DNA of 64,000 nt, from assembly GCF_007752135.1 (NCBI RefSeq), contig NZ_CP036298.1:3720001-3784000 (forward strand). Direction: 5' to 3'. A program made the position numbers and the translations under genes. The DNA is from Aureliella helgolandensis. Lineage in GTDB: Bacteria > Planctomycetota > Planctomycetia > Pirellulales > Pirellulaceae. The notes beneath the pieces are model-generated. The model saw only the letters and a list, made by a program, of their open reading frames with translations. It searched no databases and was not told where the DNA came from. Positions 51,242 to 64,000 of this stretch are shown here, piece by piece. Position 1 is the stretch's first letter, and each line of letters starts with the position of its first letter.

Positions 51242-52432
51242 ATGCCGACACAGCCAATTTATCTCGACAATAACGCATCAACGCGTTTGGACCCGGCTGT
51301 ACTGGAGGCGATGCTTCCTTTCTTGACTGAACAATACGGCAACTCTTCGAGTACCTCTCATGTCTTCGGGCAAATTGCTGAAAAGGCTGTCAGCGACGCC
51401 AGAGAGAATGTCGCCAGGCTTCTGAACTGCCGAACACAGGAAATTGTGTTCACAAGCGGCGCGACGGAATCAAATAACCTTGCAATTCTTGGTGCGATGC
51501 GTGCGTCACCGGTGGGTCGGAAACTGATTATTGCGGCTGCAGAGCATAAGGCCGTAATTGACCCGGCAGAGAGATTGTCTGCTGAAGGCTACAACGTCTG
51601 CGTATTGCCAGTCGACAAACATGGATGTGTTTCCGCAGAGCAAGTCGCTACTGAATTGGATGAAACGACGATTCTCGTGTCCATAATGCATGGCAACAAT
51701 GAAGTCGGTTCGATTAACCCAATTAGTGAAATTGCAGCGTTGTGCAGGGTGCACAATGTTCTGTTCCACACCGATGCGACGCAGACCGTTGGCAAGATCC
51801 CGTTGGACCTTTCGCGACTCGAAGTAGACATGCTCAGCCTCTCGGCTCACAAGATGTACGGTCCAAAGGGAATCGGAGCGCTCTTCATTCGAAAACGTTT
51901 TCCTAAGACTAGTCTGGAGCCGCTCGTCTTTGGCGGTGGGCACGAACGGAAAATTCGCAGTGGAACACTCCCGGTTCATCAAATTGTCGGTTTGGGAGCG
52001 GCGTGTTCAATCTGTTCGAGCAATATAGTGTCCGAAGCTAAGCAGATTAGTGCATTGCGTGAACTTTTGAAGCAGAAGATTGCCGAAAGAGTGCCTAACA
52101 TTCAATTCAACGGACACTCGGACAATCGGCTGCCAGGAAGCTTGCATGTCAGTATCCCAGGTGCAAACGCTGAAGCCGTAATGATGAAGCTCCGCAATCA
52201 GTTGGCGATGAGCTCCGGCTCTGCGTGCACTATGTCATCACCGGAACCAAGCCATGTGCTCAAGGCAATTGGCCTTGAAGCCTCGTGCTTAACAACGAGT
52301 TTGCGGTTCGGAATCGGTCGATTTAACACCGAATCGGAAGTTTGCACTGCTGCCGACATACTAAGTCCCGCAGTCGAAGCGTGCCGACAACTCTCAGGCT
52401 ACTTAGAAAAACTGAAAAACCCAGTCCAATAG
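51242..52432 (+). CDS. dndA: Cysteine desulfurase DndA
   Basis: The 396-residue PLP enzyme takes sulfur from cysteine as a persulfide for DNA phosphorothioation. The PLP lysine K204 lies in SAHKMYGPKG, and H102 in AAAEHKAV. The active cysteine C329 is in MSSGSACTMSS, on the flexible loop that passes sulfur on. An IscS-type housekeeping role is possible from sequence alone, but the location directly ahead of dndB-E on the same strand supports DndA. A GGAG site precedes the ATG. In some hosts dndA is divergent from dndBCDE; here all are in line. Confidence 0.9.
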   Translation: MPTQPIYLDNNASTRLDPAVLEAMLPFLTEQYGNSSSTSHVFGQIAEKAVSDARENVARLLNCRTQEIVFTSGATESNNLAILGAMRASPVGRKLIIAAAEHKAVIDPAERLSAEGYNVCVLPVDKHGCVSAEQVATELDETTILVSIMHGNNEVGSINPISEIAALCRVHNVLFHTDATQTVGKIPLDLSRLEVDMLSLSAHKMYGPKGIGALFIRKRFPKTSLEPLVFGGGHERKIRSGTLPVHQIVGLGAACSICSSNIVSEAKQISALRELLKQKIAERVPNIQFNGHSDNRLPGSLHVSIPGANAEAVMMKLRNQLAMSSGSACTMSSPEPSHVLKAIGLEASCLTTSLRFGIGRFNTESEVCTAADILSPAVEACRQLSGYLEKLKNPVQ

Positions 52433-52443
52433 CCCCAATGCCA

Positions 52444-52496
52444 TTTGACTTCCCCTGCGATATGATTTAACTTCCTGGTAGTACCTTTTAACTTCC
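52444..52496 (+). promoter_or_regulatory. Three TTTRACTTCC iterons upstream of dndB
   Basis: TTTGACTTCC at 52444, TTTAACTTCC at 52466 and TTTAACTTCC at 52487 are spaced 22 and 21 bp apart, that is about two helical turns, which places them on one face of the DNA. The second and third extend to CCTGG and CCAGG. The third merges with the AGGAGG ribosome site (52497-52502) of dndB. Such iterons suggest a multimeric DNA-binding protein, possibly DndB itself, which is known to act as a regulator of dnd genes in other bacteria. Confidence 0.6.
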
Positions 52497-52509
52497 AGGA
52501 GGTTGTGCC

Positions 52510-53607
52510 ATGTCGCTAGATGACAACGTTCTGACATTTACCGCGATTCAAGGGATTCAAGCGGGCAGGCAGTATTACAGCGTTATGTGCCCGCTCAAAG
52601 TTGTGCCGCGAATATTCGTTTTCGATGAGGAGGAAGTGCCTCCAGAATTACGTGCTCAGCGGACTCTCAATAAGAGCAGAATACCAGAAATAGCTCGGTA
52701 TATTGTCGACAATCCGAAGGACTATATCTTCTCATCGATTACCGCGTCCGTTGACGGAAAGTTCGAGTTCGTACCATATGGCCAAGATGGCACCAGCCGA
52801 AATCTCGGTACACTGAAAATACCAATGACCGCTAGGTTCTTGATCAACGATGGCCAGCATCGAAGGGCGGCGATAGAATTGGCCCTCAAAGAGCGTCCTG
52901 AACTTGGCGACGAGACTCTTTCAGTCGTGTTTCTTCACGATGCGGGGCTGAAACGTAGTCAGCAGATGTTCGCCGATCTCAATCGTCATGCCATCCGACC
53001 AACCAAGTCGCTAGGGATTCTATACGATCGCCGCGAGCCAATGGCTGAACTTTGTCGGCAAGTAGTGGACGATGTAACGGTGTTCCGAGACTTGACAGAG
53101 GTCGAGAAAACTACCATTTCGAATCGCTCGAACAAGCTGCACACTCTGTCGGCAATTTACCAAGCGACACAAACGCTATTGGGTAAAACCAAGAGATCGA
53201 AAGTCAATGCAGAGGAAGTAAAACTTGCAGTCGAATTCTGGGAAGAAGTCGGGAAGAACGTTCCTGATTGGCAATTAGCGGTCAAGAAGTCTGTCGGCTG
53301 CGCTGAACTCCGGCGCGACTACATTCACGCTCACGGGATTGCGATTCAGGCACTGGGCGGCGCCGGAGCCGCACTACTAGCAGAAGAGCCAAAACAATGG
53401 AAAAAGCGACTGACGGCACTTCGCAAAATCAATTGGTCACGAAGTAATCCAGAGTGGGAAGGTCGAGCTCTGGTCAATGGGAGAGTTAGCAAGGCTCTGG
53501 TGAACGTGACTCGAACTACCAACTTCGTAAAGCAAACGCTTGGTGTCGCTGCTACGAGTAAAGAGCGACAAGCAGAGAACCAGGTCAAATCGAAAAAACG
53601 CGCGTAG
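52510..53607 (+). CDS. dndB: DndB, DGQHR-domain regulator of DNA phosphorothioation
   Basis: The 365-residue protein has the DGQHR motif at 114-118 within FLINDGQHRRAAIELALKE, and LHDAGLKRSQQMFADLNRHAIRPTKSLGILYDRR, both diagnostic of DndB. It regulates and limits modification and is a DNA-binding repressor in known systems. The gene has a perfect AGGAGG ribosome site with 7-bp spacing, preceded by the iterons at 52444-52496, and ends 24 bp before dndC. The basic C-terminal tail KSKKRA fits DNA contact. Confidence 0.95.
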   Translation: MSLDDNVLTFTAIQGIQAGRQYYSVMCPLKVVPRIFVFDEEEVPPELRAQRTLNKSRIPEIARYIVDNPKDYIFSSITASVDGKFEFVPYGQDGTSRNLGTLKIPMTARFLINDGQHRRAAIELALKERPELGDETLSVVFLHDAGLKRSQQMFADLNRHAIRPTKSLGILYDRREPMAELCRQVVDDVTVFRDLTEVEKTTISNRSNKLHTLSAIYQATQTLLGKTKRSKVNAEEVKLAVEFWEEVGKNVPDWQLAVKKSVGCAELRRDYIHAHGIAIQALGGAGAALLAEEPKQWKKRLTALRKINWSRSNPEWEGRALVNGRVSKALVNVTRTTNFVKQTLGVAATSKERQAENQVKSKKRA

Positions 53608-53631
53608 GAATTCAAAAGGAGATGGACTCTG

Positions 53632-55116
53632 ATGGATGTTGAGGTACCGAGTGTGGCGAGCGAAGCCACGGTGTTTGAGAATAAACCTATTAGCGAATTC
53701 TATTCGGAGGTTCAGGCCGTCTACTTGGAAGACACAAAACCATGGGTGCTCGGCTATAGCGGTGGGAAGGATTCAACTGCGACGTTGCAGGTGGTCTGGA
53801 CTGCGGTGTCCATGCTTCCGCCCGAGAAACGTCACAAGCATGTGTTCGTGATTTCGTCGGATACCTACGTTGAAACCCCCGTAATTGTCAATCACATCGA
53901 TAGCAATCTTGATGCCATCAACCGAGCTGCGAAAGAGCAAGGGCTTCCATTTAGCGCCGACAAGGTTGTTCCGAAACTGACGGATACCTTTTGGGTTTGC
54001 CTCCTCGGTAAAGGGTATCCGGCTCCTACGACGCGATTTCGCTGGTGCACGGAACGAATGAAGATTAGCCCTGCCGATGTGTTTATTCTTGATCGTGTCG
54101 CGGAAAGCGGCGAGGTCGTGATGGTCTTGGGCGCAAGAAAAGGAGAGAGTGCTTCACGCGACCAGGTACTGAAGAATCGTGAGATTAAGGGGTCACTGCT
54201 TCGCAAACATTCGTCACTTCTGAACGCATATGTTTACGCCCCCATCGAAGACTTCACGACCAACGATGTATGGCAATATATCTTGTCGGCCGATTCTCCC
54301 TGGGGCGGCGACAATTCCGAATTAGTCGGCATGTACAAGAGCGCCGCTGGAGGTGAGTGCCCGCTCGTTGTTGACAAGAGTACGCCATCGTGCGGAAACA
54401 GCCGCTTTGGTTGCTGGGTTTGTCCGGTCGTTGATAAAGACCATTCGATGGAATCGATGGTTGACAATGGCGAAGACTGGATGGAACCGCTTTTGGAAAT
54501 TCAGCGAGAACTCGCCTCGCACAAAGACCCAGAAATCAAGAAGAAGATCCGCGAAATAAAACGCCGCGATGGTAGAGTCTGGCGAGCGAAGAGTAAAGAA
54601 GATCGCAAACGCGGCTCACGCAACTGGTCTAAGGAAGAGGGCGAGTACATTCCTGGACCCTACAAAATTGCCTACCGCAAAGATCTACTTCAGAAGATCC
54701 TGATCGCCCAAAAATCGATTCGCGAGAATGGCCCGGATTCCAAGGCGTGCTTAATCCGTGAGGACGAGCTCAAGGCGATTCGTGACATATGGCGAACTGA
54801 ATCACAGGAATGGGAAGACTCAATTCCCAAGATCTACAACGATATCTTCGGAGACCGAGAAATCCTTTGGGAAAACGAAGACGTCACTTCGCTGCGCATG
54901 AATGATGGGCAGTTGTTGAAAAGTATATGTGACGGCCACGATGTTCCCATGCACCTGGTTGTGAAGCTTGTTTCGCTTGAGCGGAATATGCAAGGAATGA
55001 CCAAACGCGCTGGTATCTTCAACAAAATTGACAAGATCTTTGCTGAGGACTGGAAAGAGGAGCGAGAAATCCAAGAGATCCTCGAAATGGAGGCAGCAGA
55101 ACAAAGTGAAAATTAA
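53632..55116 (+). CDS. dndC: DndC, PAPS reductase-like sulfurtransferase
   Basis: The 494-residue protein has an ATP pyrophosphatase P-loop SGGKDS at 43-48, typical of the PAPS reductase/DndC family, which activates the DNA backbone for sulfur insertion. TRFRWCTERMKISPAD, CGNSRFGCWVCPVVDKD and a further cysteine form the iron-sulfur site. The long C-terminal extension with RKRGSRNWSKEEG is normal for DndC. An AGGAG site precedes the ATG. The dndD start (GTG 55106) overlaps its end by 11 bp, showing coupling. Confidence 0.95.
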   Translation: MDVEVPSVASEATVFENKPISEFYSEVQAVYLEDTKPWVLGYSGGKDSTATLQVVWTAVSMLPPEKRHKHVFVISSDTYVETPVIVNHIDSNLDAINRAAKEQGLPFSADKVVPKLTDTFWVCLLGKGYPAPTTRFRWCTERMKISPADVFILDRVAESGEVVMVLGARKGESASRDQVLKNREIKGSLLRKHSSLLNAYVYAPIEDFTTNDVWQYILSADSPWGGDNSELVGMYKSAAGGECPLVVDKSTPSCGNSRFGCWVCPVVDKDHSMESMVDNGEDWMEPLLEIQRELASHKDPEIKKKIREIKRRDGRVWRAKSKEDRKRGSRNWSKEEGEYIPGPYKIAYRKDLLQKILIAQKSIRENGPDSKACLIREDELKAIRDIWRTESQEWEDSIPKIYNDIFGDREILWENEDVTSLRMNDGQLLKSICDGHDVPMHLVVKLVSLERNMQGMTKRAGIFNKIDKIFAEDWKEEREIQEILEMEAAEQSEN

Positions 55117-57163
55117 GAAACTCGTTCTCGATAACTTTGGGCTGTTCCGCGGTCACAATGAAATCGACCTCGATACGCGGGTCGTTCGTGGCAAGGTTAA
55201 GCCGATAGTTCTCATCGGTGGCAAAAACGGCTCGGGAAAAACGTCGATCCTAGAATCGATTCGCCTGTGCCTTTACGGATCTCAAGGAATCGCGGATCGC
55301 ATCTCAGTCAAAGGATATGAACAATACCTGCGTGGCCGCGTCCATCGCGACGACAGCCTGCTAATTAACCCAACTTCAGCGGCAGTCACACTTATATTTG
55401 AGCATGCTCACATTGGCGCCAAACATGAGTTCACGGTGACGCGCAGCTGGGATGTTAAAGAAAACAGCGTGAGTTCTTCTCTTGAAGTTTTTCGAGATGG
55501 CACCCCGCTTGACGAGATCGACCGTGAGAACGCAGAAGAGTTTCTGCGAGACCTCGTACCGCCAGGCGTTGCACAACTCTACTTCTTTGACGGCGAAAAG
55601 ATTCAGGAACTCGCCGAAGCCGAGGACGTCGATGCCGCACTTTCAGACGCAATCAAGAACTTGCTCGGATTAGAGTTAGTGGATCGCTTGCAGGCTGATC
55701 TTCGCATCTATAAGAACCGTATCGATAACGAAGATGCCAATGCGGATGTAGTCAAGACAATTGAAGCAATGGACAATGAGCTTCTGGAGCGACGTAGCGA
55801 GCTTGTTGAATTGCGAAAGTCACATGACGCAGCCGTGTCCCAATCCGATTCGATTCGCAAAGACATCGCAAGGCAGGAAGCCAGAATTGCGAAAGAGGGC
55901 GGAGCTTACGCAAACAAACGCGAAGAGCTTGAAGTTCAGAAGCGGAGCCATACTGCACGAATCGAGGAACTCGAGAACGAAATTCGAAGACATGCGGAGA
56001 ACCTGTTGCCGTTCACCATCGTTCCACAGCTGTGCAACGAAGTAGAGTTCCAACTTTCCGCCGAACGCAAAATACAAGAATGGAACGCGGTTGAGAAAGT
56101 TGTCGAAGACCGAGGGAGCAAGTTCCAGATTACTGTTAAGAAGCTCCTCCGACAGCATGAGAAAGACATCGGCGCAGAAATACTCAGTGGGATCGAATCA
56201 GAGATATTGGTTGCACTCATGCACTTTGTAGAGAAACCCAAGGAGCTCAGCACTGCGTCAGCTATTCACAACCTCTCAAGCGACCAGCAAGCGCGGCTGC
56301 TAACTGGAATTGAACGTGCTCGAACCGAAGTGCCTGGACAGATTGAGAAACTGCGAAAGTCACTCGAAAAGGAAACTCGCTCGCTACTGAAAGCTGAACA
56401 GGCACTCAAAAAAGTACCGAGCGAAGATCAACTGAAACCGATGGTCGAAGCGATCAACGAACTGAACCAGCAACTTGGCGCCTCCCAGACTATCGTGAGA
56501 CAAAAAGAGTCGGCACTTGGTAGCGCCGATTTCGCAATCAAGGAGCTCGAGCGCAAGCTTGAGAAGGCCGAGAAACTCAAACGCGAGTCGGGCAAGTTGC
56601 ACCAAAAACAAGAATTTGCAGAGCGCGTGCAAGCAGTGCTTGAAGAGTATCACAAGAAACTACTCCAAGCGAAATCGACAGAGCTTGGCGAGGCATTGAT
56701 AAAACGCTTCTCACAGCTTTGGCGAAAAGGCGACCGGGCCAAGCGAATCGAGATAAATCCTACGACATACGAAGTCGTTTTGTACGATCGACATGACCGT
56801 GCAGTTCCTAAGAAAGAACTTTCCGCGGGTGAAAAGCAAATCTACGCGATTGCCATTTTATGGGCACTCGCTGACGTCTCCGGCCGACCGTTACCTATGG
56901 TAATCGATACGCCACTCGGTCGCCTAGACGGAGATCACCGAAATCACCTTGTAGAACGCTACTTCCCACATGCAAGCCACCAAGTCATCATCCTCAGTAC
57001 GGATACCGAGATCGACGAAGAATATTTCAACGATCTTTCCCCCTCAGTTAGTCACGCGATCCACCTGCATTATGCCAAGGATGATGCGAGGACGATTGTC
57101 GAAGACGGCTATTTTTGGAAACGCCGATCAACCAAGAAGGAGTTAGCCGGTGCAACTCAATAA
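55106..57163 (+). CDS. dndD: DndD, SMC-like ATPase of the phosphorothioation complex
   Basis: The 685-residue protein has Walker A GGKNGSGKTS near residues 38-47, a long coiled-coil centre (SELVELRKSHDAAVSQ, ARIEELENEIRRHAEN and others), the ABC signature ELSAGEKQIYAIAILW near 571 and Walker B MVIDTPLGRLDGDH near 598. DndD nicks or reshapes DNA for sulfur insertion together with DndC and DndE. No central CxxC hook is seen. The GTG at 55106 gives KIKKLVLDNFGLFRGHNEI at the start, as in homologues; the longer frame overlaps dndC in a non-homologous way. Confidence 0.95.
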   Translation: MKIKKLVLDNFGLFRGHNEIDLDTRVVRGKVKPIVLIGGKNGSGKTSILESIRLCLYGSQGIADRISVKGYEQYLRGRVHRDDSLLINPTSAAVTLIFEHAHIGAKHEFTVTRSWDVKENSVSSSLEVFRDGTPLDEIDRENAEEFLRDLVPPGVAQLYFFDGEKIQELAEAEDVDAALSDAIKNLLGLELVDRLQADLRIYKNRIDNEDANADVVKTIEAMDNELLERRSELVELRKSHDAAVSQSDSIRKDIARQEARIAKEGGAYANKREELEVQKRSHTARIEELENEIRRHAENLLPFTIVPQLCNEVEFQLSAERKIQEWNAVEKVVEDRGSKFQITVKKLLRQHEKDIGAEILSGIESEILVALMHFVEKPKELSTASAIHNLSSDQQARLLTGIERARTEVPGQIEKLRKSLEKETRSLLKAEQALKKVPSEDQLKPMVEAINELNQQLGASQTIVRQKESALGSADFAIKELERKLEKAEKLKRESGKLHQKQEFAERVQAVLEEYHKKLLQAKSTELGEALIKRFSQLWRKGDRAKRIEINPTTYEVVLYDRHDRAVPKKELSAGEKQIYAIAILWALADVSGRPLPMVIDTPLGRLDGDHRNHLVERYFPHASHQVIILSTDTEIDEEYFNDLSPSVSHAIHLHYAKDDARTIVEDGYFWKRRSTKKELAGATQ

Positions 57164-57509
57164 GATAAAACTCACAACCGATTCCTCGGAACGCTTGAAG
57201 CAGTTAAAAGCGAAGACTGGGCTCACACCAAACATTCTGTGCCGCATCGGCTTTTGCCTGTCACTAAAAGACAACATCGTTCCAGATCCGGAGAAGTACC
57301 CCGAGGAGGACCGCGAATTCAACCGTTACACGCTGCTCGGTGAGTGGGATTCGCTCTATGTTGCCCTGCTTCGCCAGCGACTGGCCGCTGACGGCGTCAC
57401 CGACCATCCGGAGGAGGCATATTTTCGAGCTCATCTGAACCGCGGAGTTTACACCCTCAGCCGGCTCGTGAGGTCCGTCGCAGACTTGGCAAATCTCACA
57501 ATCTATTGA
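57150..57509 (+). CDS. dndE: DndE, phosphorothioation complex subunit
   Basis: The 119-residue protein starts at a GTG (57150) after an AAGGAG site and overlaps the dndD end by 14 bp. Its pattern, LTTDSSERLKQLKAKTGLTPNILCRIGFCLSLKD, then EFNRYTLLGEWDSLYVALLRQRL and HLNRGVYTLSRLVRSVADLA, matches DndE, which binds DNA, including nicked DNA, and completes the DndCDE complex. The length is as expected. The accessory module starts 126 bp downstream on the same strand. Confidence 0.95.
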   Translation: MQLNKIKLTTDSSERLKQLKAKTGLTPNILCRIGFCLSLKDNIVPDPEKYPEEDREFNRYTLLGEWDSLYVALLRQRLAADGVTDHPEEAYFRAHLNRGVYTLSRLVRSVADLANLTIY

Positions 57510-57523
57510 TTCTGTTGTTGAAC

Positions 57524-57543
57524 TCTATCGAAACTACGATAGA
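57524..57543 (+). promoter_or_regulatory. Perfect inverted repeat and downstream -10-like motif after dndE
   Basis: TCTATCG and CGATAGA pair across six bases at 57524-57543, and TATAAT lies at 57582-57587 with no obvious -35. The inverted repeat could be an operator or weak terminator between the dnd operon and the accessory module, and the TATAAT could be an independent promoter for that module. Confidence 0.35.
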
Positions 57544-57635
57544 TACAAACGCCCCAGTCTAGCGGGTAAACAAGCCCTGACTATAATGGTAATTCTCAGA
57601 TTTGACATGCTATTTCTAGCGAGTTAGGGTGAACG

Positions 57636-60107
57636 TTGTCTGAAGTAAGCGAAACGCAGCGATTAGATTGTGTATGCGGGAAGAAGCTCCGCATTCCTGC
57701 GAACGTATCTTCAACAGCCAAGGCGGGGAAATGCCCGAAGTGTCAAGCTCCGTTCGAATATCGCGACGGAACTTGGTTTTGTGTTGCGTCGGATGTTGAC
57801 ATCTCAGCCATTTCGCTGGTGTCGCCGAAACCTAACATTCTGCCCACTAATAAGTTGGTCAAACTATCTGAATATACGGTTGCAAAAAATGCTTCCCTCA
57901 CTGACGGTCAGGCCTCTGAACCTGTAATCGCAGATCAGTATCAGCCACCGATCGGATCGCCAGATCGCAGCCATTTGCCGATTGTCGTATCTGCCAGTCC
58001 TCTCTCTAGGGTTTTTGCCGAACTGGTGACTACGCAGTTCACCGATGGCGACTCCGGAACTCCATTCTACATTGCTAGAACGGAAGGAGATGCTAACTCC
58101 AATTTGTGCGGCGAGTCAGAGAATGTCGGAATCCATGAGGCGATTCGTGATTCGCTTGCACTTGCTTTGGGATTAACATCGCGTTACCCGAAGACGGTTG
58201 TTTCTGCCATTACACTTGCTTGTCATCCCTGGCCAGATTCAGCTATTTCGCGGAGTGAAATCGCAACAATTGCTGCTGAGATGTGCCCGGGGCTGAACAT
58301 CGCCCATCCGAGTATGTGCGAGATAGCTATTGACCGCCTACTACGACTCGCAGATGCAATGCGGTTTCAAGACGCAAAAGAGCTTGAGCTACTGTTTGCA
58401 AATGCAGCGGCGACGATTGAATCTTACGCAGCAGAGGTCCCAGGAATGCGGCTGGGAAGAGAGTTTGAATGCAGCAACATCGCATTGGTGCAATCGCCAA
58501 TTGGGATTGGCGTTCAGACGCTTGGAGTAGAGAAAAAGAAATTCTCCAACTCACCAGCAACAAAGCCAAACTTTTGGCGGACCACAATTCTTGCATTTCT
58601 TTCTTCTTCTGCTTTACGTGGTTCCCGTGACACAGGGGGCGCGATTGGCGGCGAGAAGACAGGCGTTTCTATTGAACAGCTAGCTCGACATCTTGGTGTT
58701 GAACTACCAGAATGCGAGTTTGATGCATATATCAATAGGCTTGATGATCGCGTACTTGATATTTTTCGTTGCAGGACTTTTCGGATTGGTATTCCAGACA
58801 CCCTCGAAGAAATTGCATCGCGTTGGAATATTACAAGAGAGCGTGTGAGACAAATCGAAGTAAAGGCGAGCGAGCGACTGAAGCGGCAGTTTGGAGAAAC
58901 TTTAAAGGGAATAGGAAAGCAGGCTTTCGTTTCCCTAACTCACTATGTTGTTCGAAAAAATCTATTCCACGAAATCACATTAGCAATAGTAAAACAGAGC
59001 AGCCACAGAGAAATTTTGACTGGATTCTTAGCTGAAGTGTTCGGTCCCTGGCAAACGGCTGGAGCGTGGCTTTATCACAAGTCACTCGAAGAATCAGTCT
59101 GCACATTGCGTAATCTATCAATTGAACGAGCAGACTCCTACGGGGTCCTCGATCGAGATACACTCGAATCTCACTGTGAAGAATTATTCCTTTCCCACAC
59201 TGACCGCGATGATTTTCTAAGGGAAGAGCTTGGGCTCGGTAACTACTTTGGGATATGGACTAATAAAAACACTTTGCGATGCCAAGTTGCTGCCGCCTTG
59301 AGACATGTTGGTCGCTCTTCAACTAAGGAAGAGATTGCGGATTTAATTGGGCATCCTGCCGAGTGTGTTGGAAGCATTCTTGCGAATTTGGATGGTGTCG
59401 TTAGAGCGGATCGCTATCGTTGGGGATTTCATGGGTGGATTGATGATGTTTACGACGGAATCGTTGGAGAGATCGAACAACGGATTGACGCCTACAGCGG
59501 CTCAGTACCTATTCACATTTTGCTCAGCGAGATCCCATCGCAGTTTAATGTGGCGGAAGGATCCGTACGGGCCTACCTCGCATCCACAGCATTCAAAGTC
59601 GAGAATGGCATTGTTCGTCGAGCAGGCATTGAAGAATATACGCCTCGAAATCCCGAGAATTGCAGAGATGCTGTCCGCATAGGCGACCGGTGGGCTTATC
59701 GGTCGCTCGTTCATCAGCGTCACTTCAATGGCTATTCACTCGGTGTCAATTTTGATGTTGCGTACGCGAATGGTTTGAGACCTGGAGACAATTTAGTTGT
59801 TTCGATTGATGGTTGCGAGTCTCACGCAAGTCTAATTTGGCGCCCTCACAATTTGAATCGTTTGGTCGACGTTGGACGAATTAGTGAATTCCTCCTGACG
59901 CAAGGCTACAAGGCTGGCGACACCGTATTTCTAATCCCGAGTAGAGAAGGGATTGCGATAGTAGACGAGCAGAAACTGTTTAAGGACTATGGTGAGTTGA
60001 AATCGCTTCCATCAACTTCCATTGATGACGAAGACTGTACTCGCAACCGCGAGGATTTGAAACTCGAAGTAAACGATCCATTGCTTGATCTACTCGGAGA
60101 ATTCTAG
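57636..60107 (+). CDS. 823-aa zinc-ribbon and sigma-70 region 4-like HTH protein of the dnd accessory module
   Basis: Not assigned to a named family. The start is a TTG with an AGGGT-type site, the only start near the frame opening. Residues 12-36 form a zinc ribbon (C12xC14, C33xxC36). The middle holds no known enzyme motif. Residues about 386-418 read DTLEEIASRWNITRERVRQIEVKASERLKR, a near-textbook sigma-70 region 4.2 helix-turn-helix. Two further winged-helix-like segments follow (SSTKEEIADLIGHPAECVGSIL near 570; GSVPIHILLSEIPSQFNVAEGSVRAYL near 625), then a beta-rich end (GDNLVVSIDG, GDTVFLIPSREGIAIVD). It may bind DNA or RNA polymerase; sensing phosphorothioated DNA is possible. It abuts the helicase gene with zero gap. 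Base composition looks more AT-rich than the upstream chromosome. Confidence 0.85.
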   Translation: MSEVSETQRLDCVCGKKLRIPANVSSTAKAGKCPKCQAPFEYRDGTWFCVASDVDISAISLVSPKPNILPTNKLVKLSEYTVAKNASLTDGQASEPVIADQYQPPIGSPDRSHLPIVVSASPLSRVFAELVTTQFTDGDSGTPFYIARTEGDANSNLCGESENVGIHEAIRDSLALALGLTSRYPKTVVSAITLACHPWPDSAISRSEIATIAAEMCPGLNIAHPSMCEIAIDRLLRLADAMRFQDAKELELLFANAAATIESYAAEVPGMRLGREFECSNIALVQSPIGIGVQTLGVEKKKFSNSPATKPNFWRTTILAFLSSSALRGSRDTGGAIGGEKTGVSIEQLARHLGVELPECEFDAYINRLDDRVLDIFRCRTFRIGIPDTLEEIASRWNITRERVRQIEVKASERLKRQFGETLKGIGKQAFVSLTHYVVRKNLFHEITLAIVKQSSHREILTGFLAEVFGPWQTAGAWLYHKSLEESVCTLRNLSIERADSYGVLDRDTLESHCEELFLSHTDRDDFLREELGLGNYFGIWTNKNTLRCQVAAALRHVGRSSTKEEIADLIGHPAECVGSILANLDGVVRADRYRWGFHGWIDDVYDGIVGEIEQRIDAYSGSVPIHILLSEIPSQFNVAEGSVRAYLASTAFKVENGIVRRAGIEEYTPRNPENCRDAVRIGDRWAYRSLVHQRHFNGYSLGVNFDVAYANGLRPGDNLVVSIDGCESHASLIWRPHNLNRLVDVGRISEFLLTQGYKAGDTVFLIPSREGIAIVDEQKLFKDYGELKSLPSTSIDDEDCTRNREDLKLEVNDPLLDLLGEF

Positions 60108-62342
60108 GTGCCTGAGCTCCTAACATCGTGGGATCCGAAATGGAAGCGTCGCTATAACTCGCCGCCGGACAATCTAATTGACGGTTTCTACTCACCCGCA
60201 TTAATTCGCAGTCACCAATACGACCGTGCAGTTGGATTTTTCTCATCGTCGCTGCTCGCCGCAATCTCACCCGCGTTGGATACATTTGTCTCGAACGGCG
60301 GTACCATGCGTTTGATTACATCGCCGGCAAACCTGAGCGATGAAGATTTGGAGGCAATGGGTAAGGGGGAATTATTCAAGGCGAAGCTACAAGACGATTT
60401 GCAGTCAGAGATTTACCGCTCAATTCCCAGCGCGGTTCAGCTGGACCGTCTCAAATTATTGACATGGATGGTCGCTTCAGGACGCCTCGAAATTAGGATC
60501 GCACTTCGTGAGCATGCGGACCACTACTCGCTGTTTCATGAAAAGATTGGAGTATTCACCGACTTAGCTGGTAATTGGATGTCATTCTCGGGCAGCCCTA
60601 ATGAAACCGTTGGTGGTGCATGCAAACATTCAGAATCGTTTCCGTTACACCGCAGTTGGGCAAGCGAAGATCAAAAGGCCTACGCGGAGGAGGAACGTGA
60701 TCGCATCAATGATGTTTGGAATGAACAAATAGATGGTGTCAAGACTTGGACCGTAAATGAATGGATTGAAGATCCGATGCAGCTTAGTTTCGGTGTACGC
60801 GAGCCGAAGGTACAATACAGCGTTAAAAAACAATTTCGTCGGACGTTCCTTCCGCCGATTGAGGAGGCCGACGTTCTTGTGAATTTACCCTTTGAAAGAA
60901 TATCCCTAGTTCCGCGGCTTCCTGAGAAGTTAGAGCTTCACGATTACCAGCGGAACGCAGTAAATAAATGGCTTGTAGCCGGTGGCCGAGGCATATTTGC
61001 AATGGCAACGGGAACTGGCAAGACGATTACGGCTTTAGCGGGAGCAACACAGGCTTCATTACATGCGGCAACAAACCATCGCCCACTACTGATTTTGGTG
61101 ATAGTTCCGTTGATCGATTTGGTACACCAGTGGAGGAAGAACGCGGAATGGTTCGGCTTTCGTCCCGTTGTCTGTCACGGTAATCTCAACAAAGCCGAAC
61201 AGGATGCTTTGAAAGCGGCTTTCTCTGCTGTTCGTTCTGCCCATGCACAGCGTTCAGAGATGGTCATCACGACGGCTGGCAGTCTAACTCCTCTGGGTAG
61301 GTCGAATCCATCCGATCATTTTCTTCAGCGCCAACTTGCCCGTCACAATGGATCGTTGCTGGTGATTGGCGACGAAATGCATTCTCTTGGTACTCAGGAT
61401 AGAATAGATGCGTTACCGAAGGCTCCAAGCTTCACGCTCGGGTTGTCCGCAACTCCCAAACGCTATGGTGATGAAGAGGGGACTGCAGCCTTGCTTCGAT
61501 ACTTCGGTGACCCCGTTGTTACCATTGACATTAAGGATGCGATTTATACGTACAAAACCCTCGTCGAGTATGACTACTACCCTATAAGAATCGACCTAAC
61601 ATTCGACGAAGCAGGCGAATATCGAAAGCTATCGGCAAGAATCGCTGCTGCGTATGCTGGTAATGATCTGCAAACTGCGGAGAAGCTCATCCGATTTCGA
61701 AACCGATTAAAACAACATGCAATTAATAAGCTGAGCCGGCTTCGGGAGCTAATGCGGTCAGGCTTGAAGGATCAAACGCACCAAATCATCTACGTTGCCG
61801 AAGGACGTCATCCTGAGAGCGATCTAGGCCAGCTCGACCAAGTCGAACAATTGCTGCGAAATGAGTTCGACATGAAGGTAGCACGCTATTACGGCGAAAC
61901 AAGCTCGGATCAGCGCGAGGCGCTTCAACAGAGTCTTGCACGCGGCGACATTCAGGCACTATTGGCCATGAAGTGCTTGGACGAAGGTGTGGATATTCCA
62001 TCAGTGCGCGTCGGAATTATCACAGCTTCAACTCAAAACCCTCGACAATTTGTTCAGCGACGCGGTCGCCTGCTCCGACGCGACCCGAATAGTCCGAAGT
62101 CTCATGCTGTGATCTACGATTTCATCGTTTTGCCGCCACTTACTAACGGGGTGAATCTTGAATCTGAGAAAACGTTAATTGGAGCAGAGTTATCACGTTC
62201 TGCGGAGTTGGCCGACGCCGCGCGGAACCGCGAGGTGCTGTTCGACATTCGCGAGTGGGCCTATCATTATCAACTTGATCCAGAGAAATACACTTGGATG
62301 GAACTTTCAGGCCAAGAACCAATGCAGGAGTGGATACCATGA
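60108..62342 (+). CDS. PLD-nuclease and SF2 helicase fusion of the dnd accessory module
   Basis: The GTG at 60108 follows the preceding stop directly, with GGAG eight bases upstream. The 744-residue protein starts with a phospholipase D-like domain (FYSPALIRSHQYDRAVGFFSSS; LFHEKIGVF near 142, then SFSGSPNET), an HxK and GSxN active-site pattern found in nucleases. A superfamily 2 helicase follows: Walker A ATGTGKT near 300, VIGDEMHSLG as the DExH box near 420, GLSATPKR, and QRRGRLLRR as motif VI. It could unwind and cut DNA. It overlaps the 60-aa gene by 4 bp (ATGA). Confidence 0.9.
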   Translation: MPELLTSWDPKWKRRYNSPPDNLIDGFYSPALIRSHQYDRAVGFFSSSLLAAISPALDTFVSNGGTMRLITSPANLSDEDLEAMGKGELFKAKLQDDLQSEIYRSIPSAVQLDRLKLLTWMVASGRLEIRIALREHADHYSLFHEKIGVFTDLAGNWMSFSGSPNETVGGACKHSESFPLHRSWASEDQKAYAEEERDRINDVWNEQIDGVKTWTVNEWIEDPMQLSFGVREPKVQYSVKKQFRRTFLPPIEEADVLVNLPFERISLVPRLPEKLELHDYQRNAVNKWLVAGGRGIFAMATGTGKTITALAGATQASLHAATNHRPLLILVIVPLIDLVHQWRKNAEWFGFRPVVCHGNLNKAEQDALKAAFSAVRSAHAQRSEMVITTAGSLTPLGRSNPSDHFLQRQLARHNGSLLVIGDEMHSLGTQDRIDALPKAPSFTLGLSATPKRYGDEEGTAALLRYFGDPVVTIDIKDAIYTYKTLVEYDYYPIRIDLTFDEAGEYRKLSARIAAAYAGNDLQTAEKLIRFRNRLKQHAINKLSRLRELMRSGLKDQTHQIIYVAEGRHPESDLGQLDQVEQLLRNEFDMKVARYYGETSSDQREALQQSLARGDIQALLAMKCLDEGVDIPSVRVGIITASTQNPRQFVQRRGRLLRRDPNSPKSHAVIYDFIVLPPLTNGVNLESEKTLIGAELSRSAELADAARNREVLFDIREWAYHYQLDPEKYTWMELSGQEPMQEWIP

Positions 62343-62521
62343 GCGCTTTCCAAGAACGAATGAAGAAGCTCGCGAGCGAGCTATCACCAGAAGCGAAGGA
62401 TATTGTGAAAAAGGTCGTTACGGCCGAACATCATAAGCGTTTCAGTGACCGCAGCAATCTTCCAGATGAATTTGCAACTGCAGCGTTGCAAGCAGCCAAA
62501 CGCAAAGAAGCGACATCATGA
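62339..62521 (+). CDS. 60-aa helical protein of the dnd accessory module
   Basis: A very small charged protein whose start overlaps the helicase stop (ATGA) and whose own stop overlaps the next start (ATGA). It reads AFQERMKKLASELSPEAKDIV, KKVVTAEHHKRFSDRSNLPDEF and ATAALQAAKRKEA, mostly helix-forming. No family is recognised. The strict coupling to both neighbours suggests a stoichiometric subunit or adaptor of the helicase or ATPase. Because of its size it could easily be missed by gene callers. Confidence 0.8.
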   Translation: MSAFQERMKKLASELSPEAKDIVKKVVTAEHHKRFSDRSNLPDEFATAALQAAKRKEATS

Positions 62522-64000
62522 AGTTTATCTCACTGAGAATGAGAAACTGGCGATCTTTCCAAGGTCAGCATGAGATCGAGTTTTCCGTTGATCCAGAACG
62601 CCCCGTAACGTTACTGCTGGGCCCCAACGGTGCTGGCAAAACGGCACTACTGAACGCCTTCACTTGGGCGATATATGGTGAATTCACTGAGGGCTTCGAT
62701 CACACGGATCGCTTGGTGAATCTTGCAGCAGCGGAGCTCGACAAATCGGCGGATGCATTCGTTGAGATTCGACTGCAACATGAGGAAGACGAATATAGCG
62801 TTCGACGATCCACTAACGCACAGCGACAATTGACGGCGGATAACGACTTGGTCGTTACGCGAAACGGCGAGCGCGCGGTCGAAGCCGATATTCATCGCAT
62901 CCTTCCCAAGCCGTTAAAGGACTTGTTCTTCTTCCCGGCTGAGACCTTCAGCACAGCAAGCGTGTTGAAGGGGGACAATGGCAGAGAGGGAACATCGTTT
63001 GATGTGGGCAGGGCAATCCGGTCGCTGCTCTCTGGCGACATCTATCAGAATGCAAGCCAAGACATCCGCGACGCAATTAACAGCAATACGTTAAAGCCAC
63101 CCAAAAGGGGGCACGGGCAAGAGGCTGTCGATTCCGCGCGACATCAGTATGAACAAGCGGAGGCGGACCTCAATGCGATCGAGTCACGCAAGGATGAGTT
63201 GCCGAACTTACTCTCGACGGCGACAAAGCAGGCAGCGAAGGCGAAGTCTGAAGCTGAGCGATACGATCCAAAGGAAATCCAGAAATGGAGCCTACAGAAT
63301 GACCGCCTCAATAAGTCGGTCGACGCAGCCAAAGAACTTGTTCAGCGAGCTGATTCTATCTATATGGATTTATCGAGGAGCTCCCACCTTCATTTGGCAC
63401 AGTACGCGTGCGAATCAGCAATTCGGAGGCTGGATCTCGCCGAAACGGCTGGCCTGATGCCTCCACGTATTCATGAGTCGGTTCTTGAAAAAACGCTGGA
63501 AACAGGACAGTGCACTCTGTGCAGAACTCCTCTCACAATCCAAACAAGAGAACGCATCCAGATGCTGAGAGACCGCGTGGGTGATGCTCAAATCGCAGTC
63601 CGCGGTTTGGAAGCGCGCTCAATGTTGAAGCAGTATCTGGTGCGAAGAGAATCGGAAGTTGATCGGCTACGCGGAGAAATTGAAAAACTCGCAACTGAAC
63701 TCGAAATACCATCTCCAGCGAAAGATGCCAATTTTAAGATTCTCGCAGCAGTAGCCCGATCTTGTATTACGGTCAGTAATGGGCTCCAACGGCAAGCGAG
63801 AATGGATCTCGACAAGTTCATTGCAGAAGCAAATATAGAGCGACCGGCGGATGGCAGAAGCCCGGTTGAAATCGCGATCAACGCTCAGAACCGTGTAGAT
63901 ACAATTGACAATGAACTCGCCAGGATCGATTCACTCGTGGACTCAGCGAAGAAGTCACGGGATGAAACGTTCAAAAACTATAAGGAAAAGTCTGGTAAGT
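62518..64000 (+). CDS. SMC/Rad50-like AAA ATPase of the dnd accessory module (N-terminal part only)
   Basis: The frame is open to the window edge for 494 codons. It has the N-terminal start MKFISLRMRNWRSFQGQHEIEF, Walker A GPNGAGKTALLNA at about 34-46, and LKDLFFFPAETFS. A long coiled coil follows, with a CxxC hook-like motif GQCTLCRTPL near 331 as in Rad50. The signature and Walker B motifs would lie beyond the edge. Such ATPases bridge or load on DNA in defence systems. The four-base overlap with the 60-aa gene shows it is in the same operon. It is distinct from DndD, which lacks the hook and has another N-terminus. Confidence 0.9.
   Translation, partial: MKFISLRMRNWRSFQGQHEIEFSVDPERPVTLLLGPNGAGKTALLNAFTWAIYGEFTEGFDHTDRLVNLAAAELDKSADAFVEIRLQHEEDEYSVRRSTNAQRQLTADNDLVVTRNGERAVEADIHRILPKPLKDLFFFPAETFSTASVLKGDNGREGTSFDVGRAIRSLLSGDIYQNASQDIRDAINSNTLKPPKRGHGQEAVDSARHQYEQAEADLNAIESRKDELPNLLSTATKQAAKAKSEAERYDPKEIQKWSLQNDRLNKSVDAAKELVQRADSIYMDLSRSSHLHLAQYACESAIRRLDLAETAGLMPPRIHESVLEKTLETGQCTLCRTPLTIQTRERIQMLRDRVGDAQIAVRGLEARSMLKQYLVRRESEVDRLRGEIEKLATELEIPSPAKDANFKILAAVARSCITVSNGLQRQARMDLDKFIAEANIERPADGRSPVEIAINAQNRVDTIDNELARIDSLVDSAKKSRDETFKNYKEKSGK

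Follow-up and report, generated by a model that had tools for sequence, protein, structure and literature searches.

Gene content of the dnd–pbe locus

The last part of the window (the whole 64,000-nt stretch of Aureliella helgolandensis DNA analysed here) carries the following genes, given in window numbering with strand and supporting evidence.

51242..52432, + strand: dndA, 396-aa cysteine desulfurase with SGSAC as its active-site loop (PADLOC DndA, 1.2e-151; Pfam Aminotran_5; motif)
52510..53607, + strand: dndB, 365-aa regulator or NTPase of the ParB/DGQHR family, with the DGQHR motif (Pfam DndB, 2e-139; TIGR03233, above cut-off)
53632..55116, + strand: dndC, PP-loop sulfurtransferase, 494 aa, SGGKDS motif (TIGR03183, 556.9 bits; cut-off 290.4)
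55106..57163, + strand: dndD, ABC ATPase with Walker A and LSAGE motifs (TIGR03185, 545.8 bits; cut-off 245.85)
57150..57509, + strand: dndE, 119 aa (TIGR03184, 89.3 bits; cut-off 71.85)
57636..60107, + strand: SigL (a name used only in the present analysis), 823 aa, TTG start, between dndE and pbeA (Pfam Sigma70_r4, 5.2e-10)
60108..62342, + strand: pbeA, PLD/HKD-type nuclease region fused to an SF2 helicase, 744 aa, GTG start (PADLOC PbeA, 7.7e-200; motifs)
62339..62521, + strand: putative pbeB cognate, 60 aa, overlapping both neighbours (position and by-eye resemblance to some small proteins between pbeA and pbeC)
62518..64000, continuing to 64650, + strand: pbeC, 710-aa ABC ATPase of the CxC/DndD kind, hook CTLC (PADLOC PbeC, 2.4e-66 for the completed protein; motifs)
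about 64664-65209, beyond the window: pbeD, DndE-like (model of 18 PbeD proteins)

The completeness and common strand of dndABCDE, reported in the initial annotation, were confirmed by profile matches for all five genes, and the expected motifs are present in DndA, DndB, DndC and DndD. For DndA, the PADLOC SspA model scored nearly equally (1.2e-150 vs. 1.2e-151), and NCBIfam TIGR03235 gave 442 bits, short of the 480 required by that model. The GTG start of dndD at 55106 is a proposal picked by eye, and the profile searches were run on 55088-57160. The coupling by overlaps that had been described holds for dndC/dndD and dndD/dndE, but not for dndA/dndB and dndB/dndC, which are separated by gaps of 77 and 24 nt, respectively. 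A gap of 126 nt lies between dndE and the SigL gene.

The four genes after dndE are present as first described, on the same strand, with zero gap between SigL and pbeA followed by two 4-nt overlaps. They had been proposed to form an interference module distinct from DndFGH, and the profile searches support this and identify the module as the PbeABCD set. The four genes correspond to SigL, PbeA, PbeB and PbeC; SigL lies outside the published four-gene Pbe set, and PbeD was cut off by the window edge. Since PADLOC and NCBIfam identify PbeA and PbeC, a wholly new restriction module was ruled out. The earlier mention of PbeABCD as a possible type is borne out by the PADLOC matches to PbeA and PbeC, but its label as archaeal had to be dropped, because the text of PMC6459918 counts 235 pbeAC sets from bacteria and the system is therefore not peculiar to archaea.

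PbeA contains the motifs HEKIGVFTD...GSPN (HxK...D and GSxN) and DEMH. Pfam (E ≤ 0.01) matched the helicase and no PLD family, TIGR04095 gave 417 bits where its cut-off is 600, and a PbeA search of viral contigs gave no match. The 60-aa protein had no match in the profile searches, including Pfam and PADLOC, and appears PbeB-like by its position and likeness, PbeB being a small protein that evolves rapidly. Completion of the truncated ATPase from the genome gave a protein of 710 aa, of which a second PADLOC PbeC model covers residues 1-676 (E = 5.9e-58), and the following gene encodes the DndE-like PbeD. The latter scored 34.9 bits against a model built from 18 PbeD proteins that were assigned by position in Pbe loci (best of 200 shuffles, 7.1) and matched TIGR04062 with E = 5.6e-5, yet below the cut-off of that model; PADLOC and Pfam gave no match.

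Judged from these matches, the locus is of the known Dnd–PbeABCD type with an extra, putatively DNA-reading gene, SigL. Dnd–PbeABCD (Xiong et al., 2019; PMC6459918) is the same system as CxC-ABC-ATPase/DndE (Rakesh et al., 2024; PMC10853773). Systems of this type are characterised by phosphorothioate-dependent exclusion of virus DNA lacking the modification, for which each of the four Pbe genes is needed. The window shares with it the A-B-C-D arrangement next to dnd, made up of a PLD/HKD-SF2 helicase, a small protein, a CxC-type ABC ATPase and a DndE-like protein, and the lack of dndFGH. It differs in the 823-aa sigma-region-4 protein between dndE and pbeA, in the zinc hook of PbeC, which is CxxC (CTLC) and not CxC as in the six relatives compared, and in a complete bacterial dndA-E set including dndB.

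No dndFGH gene was found among the scanned genes after pbeC, in agreement with the initial annotation. DndFGH and DptFGH likewise partner dndABCDE, but DptH was not found in the whole genome of the window, whereas the same search was positive in two of the four genomes given (G800 and G814), both of the same family as the window genome and both carrying DptH beside dnd; DptF and DptG next to DptH were confirmed in G814 only. Ssp systems (SspABCD with SspE or SspFGH) share the phosphorothioate (PT) modification, but the window locus carries Dnd and not Ssp genes.

Domains and C-terminal tail of SigL

SigL comprises an N-terminal zinc ribbon (Cys 12, 14, 33 and 36, assigned by eye), a sigma-70 region 4 helix-turn-helix (residues 366-416), a C-terminal module (residues 478-775) that includes a putative winged helix, and the C-terminal tail NDPLLDLLGEF; both the ribbon and the tail are kept in the same-family genome G959. 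No sigma region 2 or 3 was found in the 13 SigL-type proteins scanned (Pfam, E ≤ 0.01-0.05), and SigL as a true sigma factor was rejected for lack of these regions. Sigma70_r4 was the sole sigma family in the window protein and 11 of the 12 relatives scanned, the twelfth having none; in the relative L043, NCBIfam sigma matches extend weakly upstream of region 4.

The window SigL has no recognisable alpha-CTD. Region 4 and alpha-CTD occur together in the SigL-type proteins of Arthrobacter, G528, G582, Pontibrevibacter, Ruegeria and Aurantiacibacter, the alpha-CTD of the Pontibrevibacter and Ruegeria proteins falling below the Pfam cut-off. Since region 4 and alpha-CTD-like parts are the only ones recognised in the proteins of Alphaproteobacteria and Lactiplantibacillus, these may be analogues. 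The Lactiplantibacillus protein was also considered as a source of the PLD nuclease missing from a short 455-458-aa helicase, which was rejected as it has no PLD profile match and no convincing HKD motif. As read, SigL-type proteins are 437-1297 aa long, with the exception of a 418-aa C-terminal relative in G591.

Structure predictions of SigL were mostly unusable (mean pLDDT of 35.1 and 48.6 in two models), and the winged helix at about residues 601-662 was the only part near pLDDT 80. Foldseek matched it to the MCM C-terminal structure 2ma3 with a probability of 0.99 but an E-value of 0.35 (rmsd 2.2 over 59 columns; sequence E = 0.06), which weakly supports the predicted winged-helix shape of the C-terminal module. 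HARE-HTH (PF05066), predicted to read modified DNA, matched two of six members of this module (best E = 0.2), that of the window being absent among the matches listed. The HARE-HTH study of Aravind and Iyer from 2012 reportedly describes bacterial proteins combining RNA polymerase alpha and sigma features.

A sigma-region-4 protein, MzaA, also belongs to a named anti-phage gene set, the MZA system (NCBIfam NF041931, PADLOC). Its likeness to SigL is limited to region 4, about 50 aa, with 30.1 bits vs. a cut-off of 800, and it is no full-length match. No other Mza protein was named among the PADLOC and NCBIfam matches listed for the locus proteins.

The tails of SigL and PbeD both contain DPLLDLL in the window, and in G959 they read DPLLDLL and DPLLDML, respectively. 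Between the window and G959, 9 of the last 11 residues of SigL are identical, compared with 9 of 37 in the preceding linker. The SigL/PbeD tail score of the window pair was 41, and none of 210 mismatched pairs exceeded 32 (mean, 15). The likeness is striking in the window and G959 only; elsewhere, four actinomycete pairs scored 21-26 and the other ten 11-17.

SigL-type genes beside Pbe cassettes

Of 13 sampled PbeA loci, 8 have SigL or a region-4/C-terminal relative next to the Pbe cassette; without the two seed loci (the window and Arthrobacter G392), the count is 6 of 11. Such a neighbour was found in three of the six PbeA loci from 392 genomes of the window's phylum and in five of the seven from 394 genomes of the class to which Arthrobacter G392 belongs. 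Six of the eight neighbours combine region 4 with the C-terminal module; that of G361 has region 4 only and that of G591 C-terminal parts only. Among 172 ORFs of at least 150 aa at the 13 loci, these domains are restricted to the eight proteins, each of which adjoins the Pbe cassette. In addition, a region-4 protein lies next to PbeA in 9 of 24 plasmid records, two of the nine being taken from the match listing alone.

In G959, dndA-E, SigL, pbeA, pbeC and pbeD lie in the same order as in the window. The SigL-type gene overlaps pbeA by 1 or 4 nt in the Arthrobacter, G361, G582, G591, G959, Pontibrevibacter, Ruegeria and Lactiplantibacillus loci; it lies downstream of pbeD in G389 and Aurantiacibacter and is convergent in G503. 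In G389 and G503, the SigL–Pbe cassette adjoins Ssp modification genes, an association that points to a Pbe arm not bound to Dnd chemistry. Among three Arthrobacter loci obtained by a search of genome contigs, that of Bi26 (L024) has a broken SigL, and the Bi26 genome is without PbeA.

Pbe genes occur without a SigL-type gene in 5 of the 13 sampled loci and in at least 11 of the 24 plasmid records, including all five haloarchaeal plasmid loci opened, four of which were judged by annotation only. According to the text of PMC6459918, dndCDEA-pbeABCD alone protects in the tested archaeal system. Therefore, SigL is not universally required. Furthermore, because it was seen in none of the five haloarchaeal loci, the archaeal-based definition of Pbe may have missed it.

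Possible roles of SigL

We consider it probable that this is a Dnd–PbeABCD locus with a recurrently recruited fifth Pbe subunit, the DNA-reading SigL. DndA-E would introduce sulfur, as PT, at a single motif of the DNA backbone, and PbeABCD would block DNA without this modification. SigL would be co-produced with PbeA and would read DNA through its zinc ribbon (in relatives, alpha-CTD-like repeats), sigma region 4 and winged-helix parts, docking through the DPLLDLL tail onto a partner surface also used by PbeD. PbeC and PbeD would scan the DNA and SigL would read a site or modification state, and the physical complex would license the nuclease-helicase PbeA against unmodified invading DNA, presumably with antiviral activity in the host.

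Regulators are commonly encoded next to their targets, and SigL, made of transcription-type DNA-binding parts and encoded directly upstream of pbeA in most loci that have it, could regulate the neighbouring Pbe genes; a promoter could fit in the 126-nt gap ahead of the window gene. However, a regulator has no need for a tail in common with PbeD, SigL-type proteins are large, and their genes are also found downstream of pbeD or convergent. A promoter/terminator scan, which is weak evidence, gave no outstanding promoter-like site and no excess (6 found vs. 9.2 expected). On balance, a regulatory role seems unlikely.

That SigL acts on its own, as a defence or regulatory gene that is a mere fellow traveller in the same defence island, is rather improbable. 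Relatives of the C-terminal module do lie mostly away from Pbe, being present in 34 of the 394 genomes from the Arthrobacter G392 class and beside Pbe in five (PbeA was detected in just seven), and copies with no surrounding Pbe genes are found on plasmids of M. avium and M. chubuense. However, hitch-hiking is hard to reconcile with the exact adjacency, with overlaps of 1 or 4 nt, seen in distant bacteria on separate tree branches, or with the gene order kept in G959. A 22-row tree, in which the window row is on a very long branch, requires at least two changes of the Pbe label, four by parsimony.

Sigma region 4 and alpha-CTD are promoter-binding parts of RNA polymerase. It is improbable that SigL marks transcription in this manner, its sigma-4/alpha-CTD-like parts recognising -35/UP-like promoter DNA and thereby directing Pbe to invading DNA that is being transcribed: the co-occurrence of the two domains in SigL-type proteins and the arrest of viral replication by PbeABCD with cleavage undetected (text of PMC6459918) would fit, but promoter binding is a prediction, the helix-turn-helix may be repurposed for any sequence, and archaeal Pbe arrests replication from a cloned fragment without SigL.

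For SigL as a fifth subunit, a broader and more tentative version is conceivable, though we hold it to be rather doubtful, in which many bacterial Pbe systems would consist of five proteins. The fifth would be an RNA-polymerase mimic with alpha-CTD or zinc-ribbon, sigma-4 and winged-helix readers, recruited several times independently and clamped by a PbeD-type C-terminal tail, giving target or modification recognition such that Pbe could arrest invading DNA under any modification (Dnd, Ssp or methylation).

No sigma-region-4 or sigma-like protein in phosphorothioation defence was found in open-licence PMC papers, among them the texts of PMC6459918 and PMC10853773; the one sigma passage found in the text of PMC10853773 concerns DndH. 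According to these two texts, it is unsettled how PbeABCD discriminates between DNA with and without PT and by what means viral replication is halted without visible cleavage. As a recurrent DNA-reading neighbour with a PbeD-type tail, SigL is a concrete suspect for Pbe recognition. Proteins of this kind often adjoin Pbe genes in distant bacteria, and SigL may be an overlooked subunit of Pbe defence.

Dnd operon and the cassette that follows it

The window's genome is one contig of 8.44 Mb. The locus comprises the features below, where numbering beyond 64000 lies outside the window and SigL is a working name, used only here, for the gene between dndE and pbeA.

51242-57509, plus strand: dndA, dndB, dndC, dndD and dndE, all complete, with family matches and the expected motifs in A-D
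57636-60107: SigL, 823 aa, TTG start, 126 nt after dndE
60108-62342: PLD-helicase gene (pbeA), zero gap after SigL
62339-62521: 60-aa gene, 4-nt overlap with the preceding gene
62518 onwards: ATPase gene (pbeC), 4-nt overlap with the 60-aa gene
About 64664-65209, outside the window: pbeD, after pbeC, recognised with a model of 18 PbeD proteins

As initially annotated, dndA-E are complete and run in one direction, and the next four genes are tightly packed, abutting once and overlapping by 4 nt twice. The proposed coupling of the dnd genes by overlaps held at dndC/dndD and dndD/dndE, but the remaining dnd junctions are gaps.

Profile matches, and position for the 60-aa protein, indicated that the accessory module after SigL is PbeABCD. 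The PLD-helicase matched PADLOC PbeA at 7.7e-200. The ATPase, truncated by the window, was completed from the genome as a 710-aa protein (PbeC, 2.4e-66), and the gene after it encodes PbeD, which reached 34.9 bits with the 18-protein PbeD model, 200 shuffles giving at most 7.1, and matched TIGR04062 at 5.6e-5, under its cut-off. The 60-aa protein occupies the pbeB position; 17 of 18 excised loci, the window included, have a small ORF separating pbeA from pbeC (none was recovered in L040), and some of these ORFs resemble the 60-aa protein by eye. The module is distinct from DndFGH, as the initial annotation stated, but it is not new.

In the available sections of PMC6459918, archaeal pbeABCD genes adjoin dndCDEA, three of the four are absolutely required and pbeA partly required for phosphorothioate (PT)-dependent defence, replication is arrested with no visible cleavage, and 235 pbeAC sets are counted in bacteria. 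PMC10853773 revises these assignments: PbeA combines an HKD nuclease with an SF2 helicase, PbeB is small and disordered, PbeC belongs to the CxC ABC ATPases and PbeD is a DndE cognate.

The reported lack of dndFGH was borne out: DndFGH was not found among the scanned neighbour genes of the locus, nor DptH in the window's genome by a search that did detect DptH in two of the four genomes supplied, namely G800 and G814 of the same family. In these two relatives, no Pbe gene was found in the stretches read beside the dnd and Dpt genes. Within a single bacterial family, interference arms seem to be swapped. DptF, DptG and DptH were confirmed with the dnd genes in G814 (L106, L107), and DptH in G800 (L104, L105).

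An IS21-type istA/istB pair (L002:14961-17340 of the extended window locus; window numbering 65960-68339) separates pbeD from further PT-associated genes, namely a DGQHR/DndB paralogue, a PT-DNA-binding HNH restriction endonuclease (L002:18797-19846; about 69796-70845) and a dnd-related methyltransferase (TIGR04096, 2.3e-169). In G959, a genome of the same family, the HNH endonuclease directly follows pbeD (L111:2772-3779). NCBIfam NF045808 scored 363 and 377 bits against the window and G959 enzymes (cut-off 180). Judged by this family assignment, a PT-DNA-cutting enzyme would be paradoxical in a PT-modifying host unless its sequence specificity differs.

Domain make-up of SigL and its recurrence beside Pbe cassettes

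SigL is not part of the published Pbe gene set. It carries an N-terminal zinc ribbon (by eye), sigma-70 region 4 (Pfam 5.2e-10) and, at the C-terminus, a module of ~300 aa for which all Pfam families fell under cut-off. A working sigma factor was ruled out because neither region 2 nor region 3 was found in SigL or 12 scanned relatives. In relatives, alpha-CTD-like helix-hairpin-helix parts precede region 4; no alpha-CTD was recognisable in the window protein, which has the zinc ribbon. The C-terminal module is predicted to include a winged helix, as the AF2 model (poor overall, mean 48.6) contains a helix-strand-helix-helix-wing unit at residues ~601-662 with pLDDT near 80. The best structural lead was the MCM winged helix 2ma3, with a non-significant E-value, and HARE-HTH, a predicted modified-DNA reader, came up for 2 of 6 members (best E=0.2). 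MZA (NCBIfam MzaA) also has a region-4 protein, but its likeness to SigL is confined to region 4.

PbeA (TIGR04095 at 1e-60 or better) was found in 6 of 392 genomes of the window's phylum, and SigL or a region-4 relative adjoins the cassette in three (window, G389 and G361, the last with region 4 only); neither was found at the PbeA loci of G206, G136 and G247. In the class of Arthrobacter G392, PbeA occurs in 7/394 genomes and SigL adjoins it in five (G392, G528, G582, G503 and G591, the last with C-terminal parts only) but not at the loci of G701 and G539. Without the two seeds, window and G392, the count is 6/11. Among 172 non-overlapping ORFs of at least 150 aa scanned at the 13 loci, SigL domains occurred in eight, every one cassette-adjacent. 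The SigL-pbeA junction is usually a 1- or 4-nt overlap; SigL follows pbeD in G389 and Aurantiacibacter and is convergent in G503.

PbeA also matched in 24 plasmid records. A region-4 protein adjoins it in nine, from Arthrobacter, Pontibrevibacter, Ruegeria, Aurantiacibacter and five Lactiplantibacillus plantarum plasmids (two of these five known from listing alone, a third with its Pfam region-4 match under cut-off). None was seen in 11 (7 profile-scanned, 4 by annotation only), including all five haloarchaeal records opened; the other four, three unopened and one clipped at the record start, are outside both counts. The Alphaproteobacteria and Lactiplantibacillus proteins may be analogues, because the window-type C-terminal module is not recognisable in them. 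In Lactiplantibacillus plasmids L043, L059 and L060, the PbeA homologue is only ~455-458 aa, without the PLD nuclease part, and the SigL-like partner is 1080-1141 aa.

Several Pbe cassettes adjoin Ssp modification genes in place of dnd genes: in G389 (L012; SspA-D all matched in PADLOC), in G503 (L042), G136 (L027; only SspD and SspC seen) and G247 (L028; only SspD seen), these three by blastp only, and on Rhizobium and Sphingomonadaceae plasmids (L045, L049). This pairing is not described in the available sections of PMC10853773, PMC12707154 and PMC11662687.

A shared tail and the place of SigL

G959, the closest relative, has dndA-dndB-dndC-dndD-dndE-SigL-pbeA-pbeC-pbeD in the window's order. 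PbeA, PbeC and PbeD are 73-75% identical between the two loci, but SigL only 44% over 815 aligned residues, with residues 561-767 (145/207) and the last 11 residues (9/11) well kept and the linker between them at 9/37. The C-terminal ends of SigL and PbeD are NDPLLDLLGEF and RDPLLDLLDMQL in the window, and SDPLLDLLGGF and RDPLLDMLDMQL in G959. Over the last 14 residues, the window pair scored 41, against a maximum of 32 and a mean of 15 for 210 mismatched pairs, many of them mutually related; four actinomycete pairs (VDEILDLL vs VDELL...) scored 21-26 and the other ten 11-17. The common tail may serve SigL and PbeD alike as a docking peptide, strongly suggested only for the window-G959 branch, and SigL would then belong to the Pbe complex. 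SigL as a regulator of pbe appeared unlikely.

The C-terminal module is also common away from Pbe. Within the same family, three of the 241 genomes searched carry it (window, G959 and G1016, where no Pbe gene was recognised within the 20 kb read), and it occurs in 34/394 genomes of the G392 class, Pbe-adjacent in five of the 34. In ten further opened loci no Pbe cassette was seen, two holding a weakly PbeA-like helicase; two mycobacterial plasmid copies had no surrounding Pbe gene, and Arthrobacter Bi26 carries a broken SigL copy in a genome without PbeA. We consider it improbable that SigL is a bystander. A promoter-seeking reader is given a slimmer chance still, and it overlaps with SigL as a fifth subunit. 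Two SigL-like proteins (776 and 621 aa) lie a few kb apart in L091 (G481) with a 686-aa gene between them, and in 15 genomes of the class search two such matches lie near each other on a single contig; these pairs are possibly another conserved system.

Overall, the locus is probably a Dnd-Pbe exclusion system in which SigL serves as a fifth, DNA-reading subunit. Systems of the Dnd-Pbe type are known; the additional component, and the fact that it recurs beside Pbe, are unreported within the open-licence PMC literature searched. In a 22-row tree, built without G959 and with a very long branch leading to the window, the Pbe label changes at least twice (four times by parsimony). Since the module also occurs away from Pbe, SigL-type proteins seem, from these comparisons, to form a broader class of DNA readers that joined Pbe more than once.
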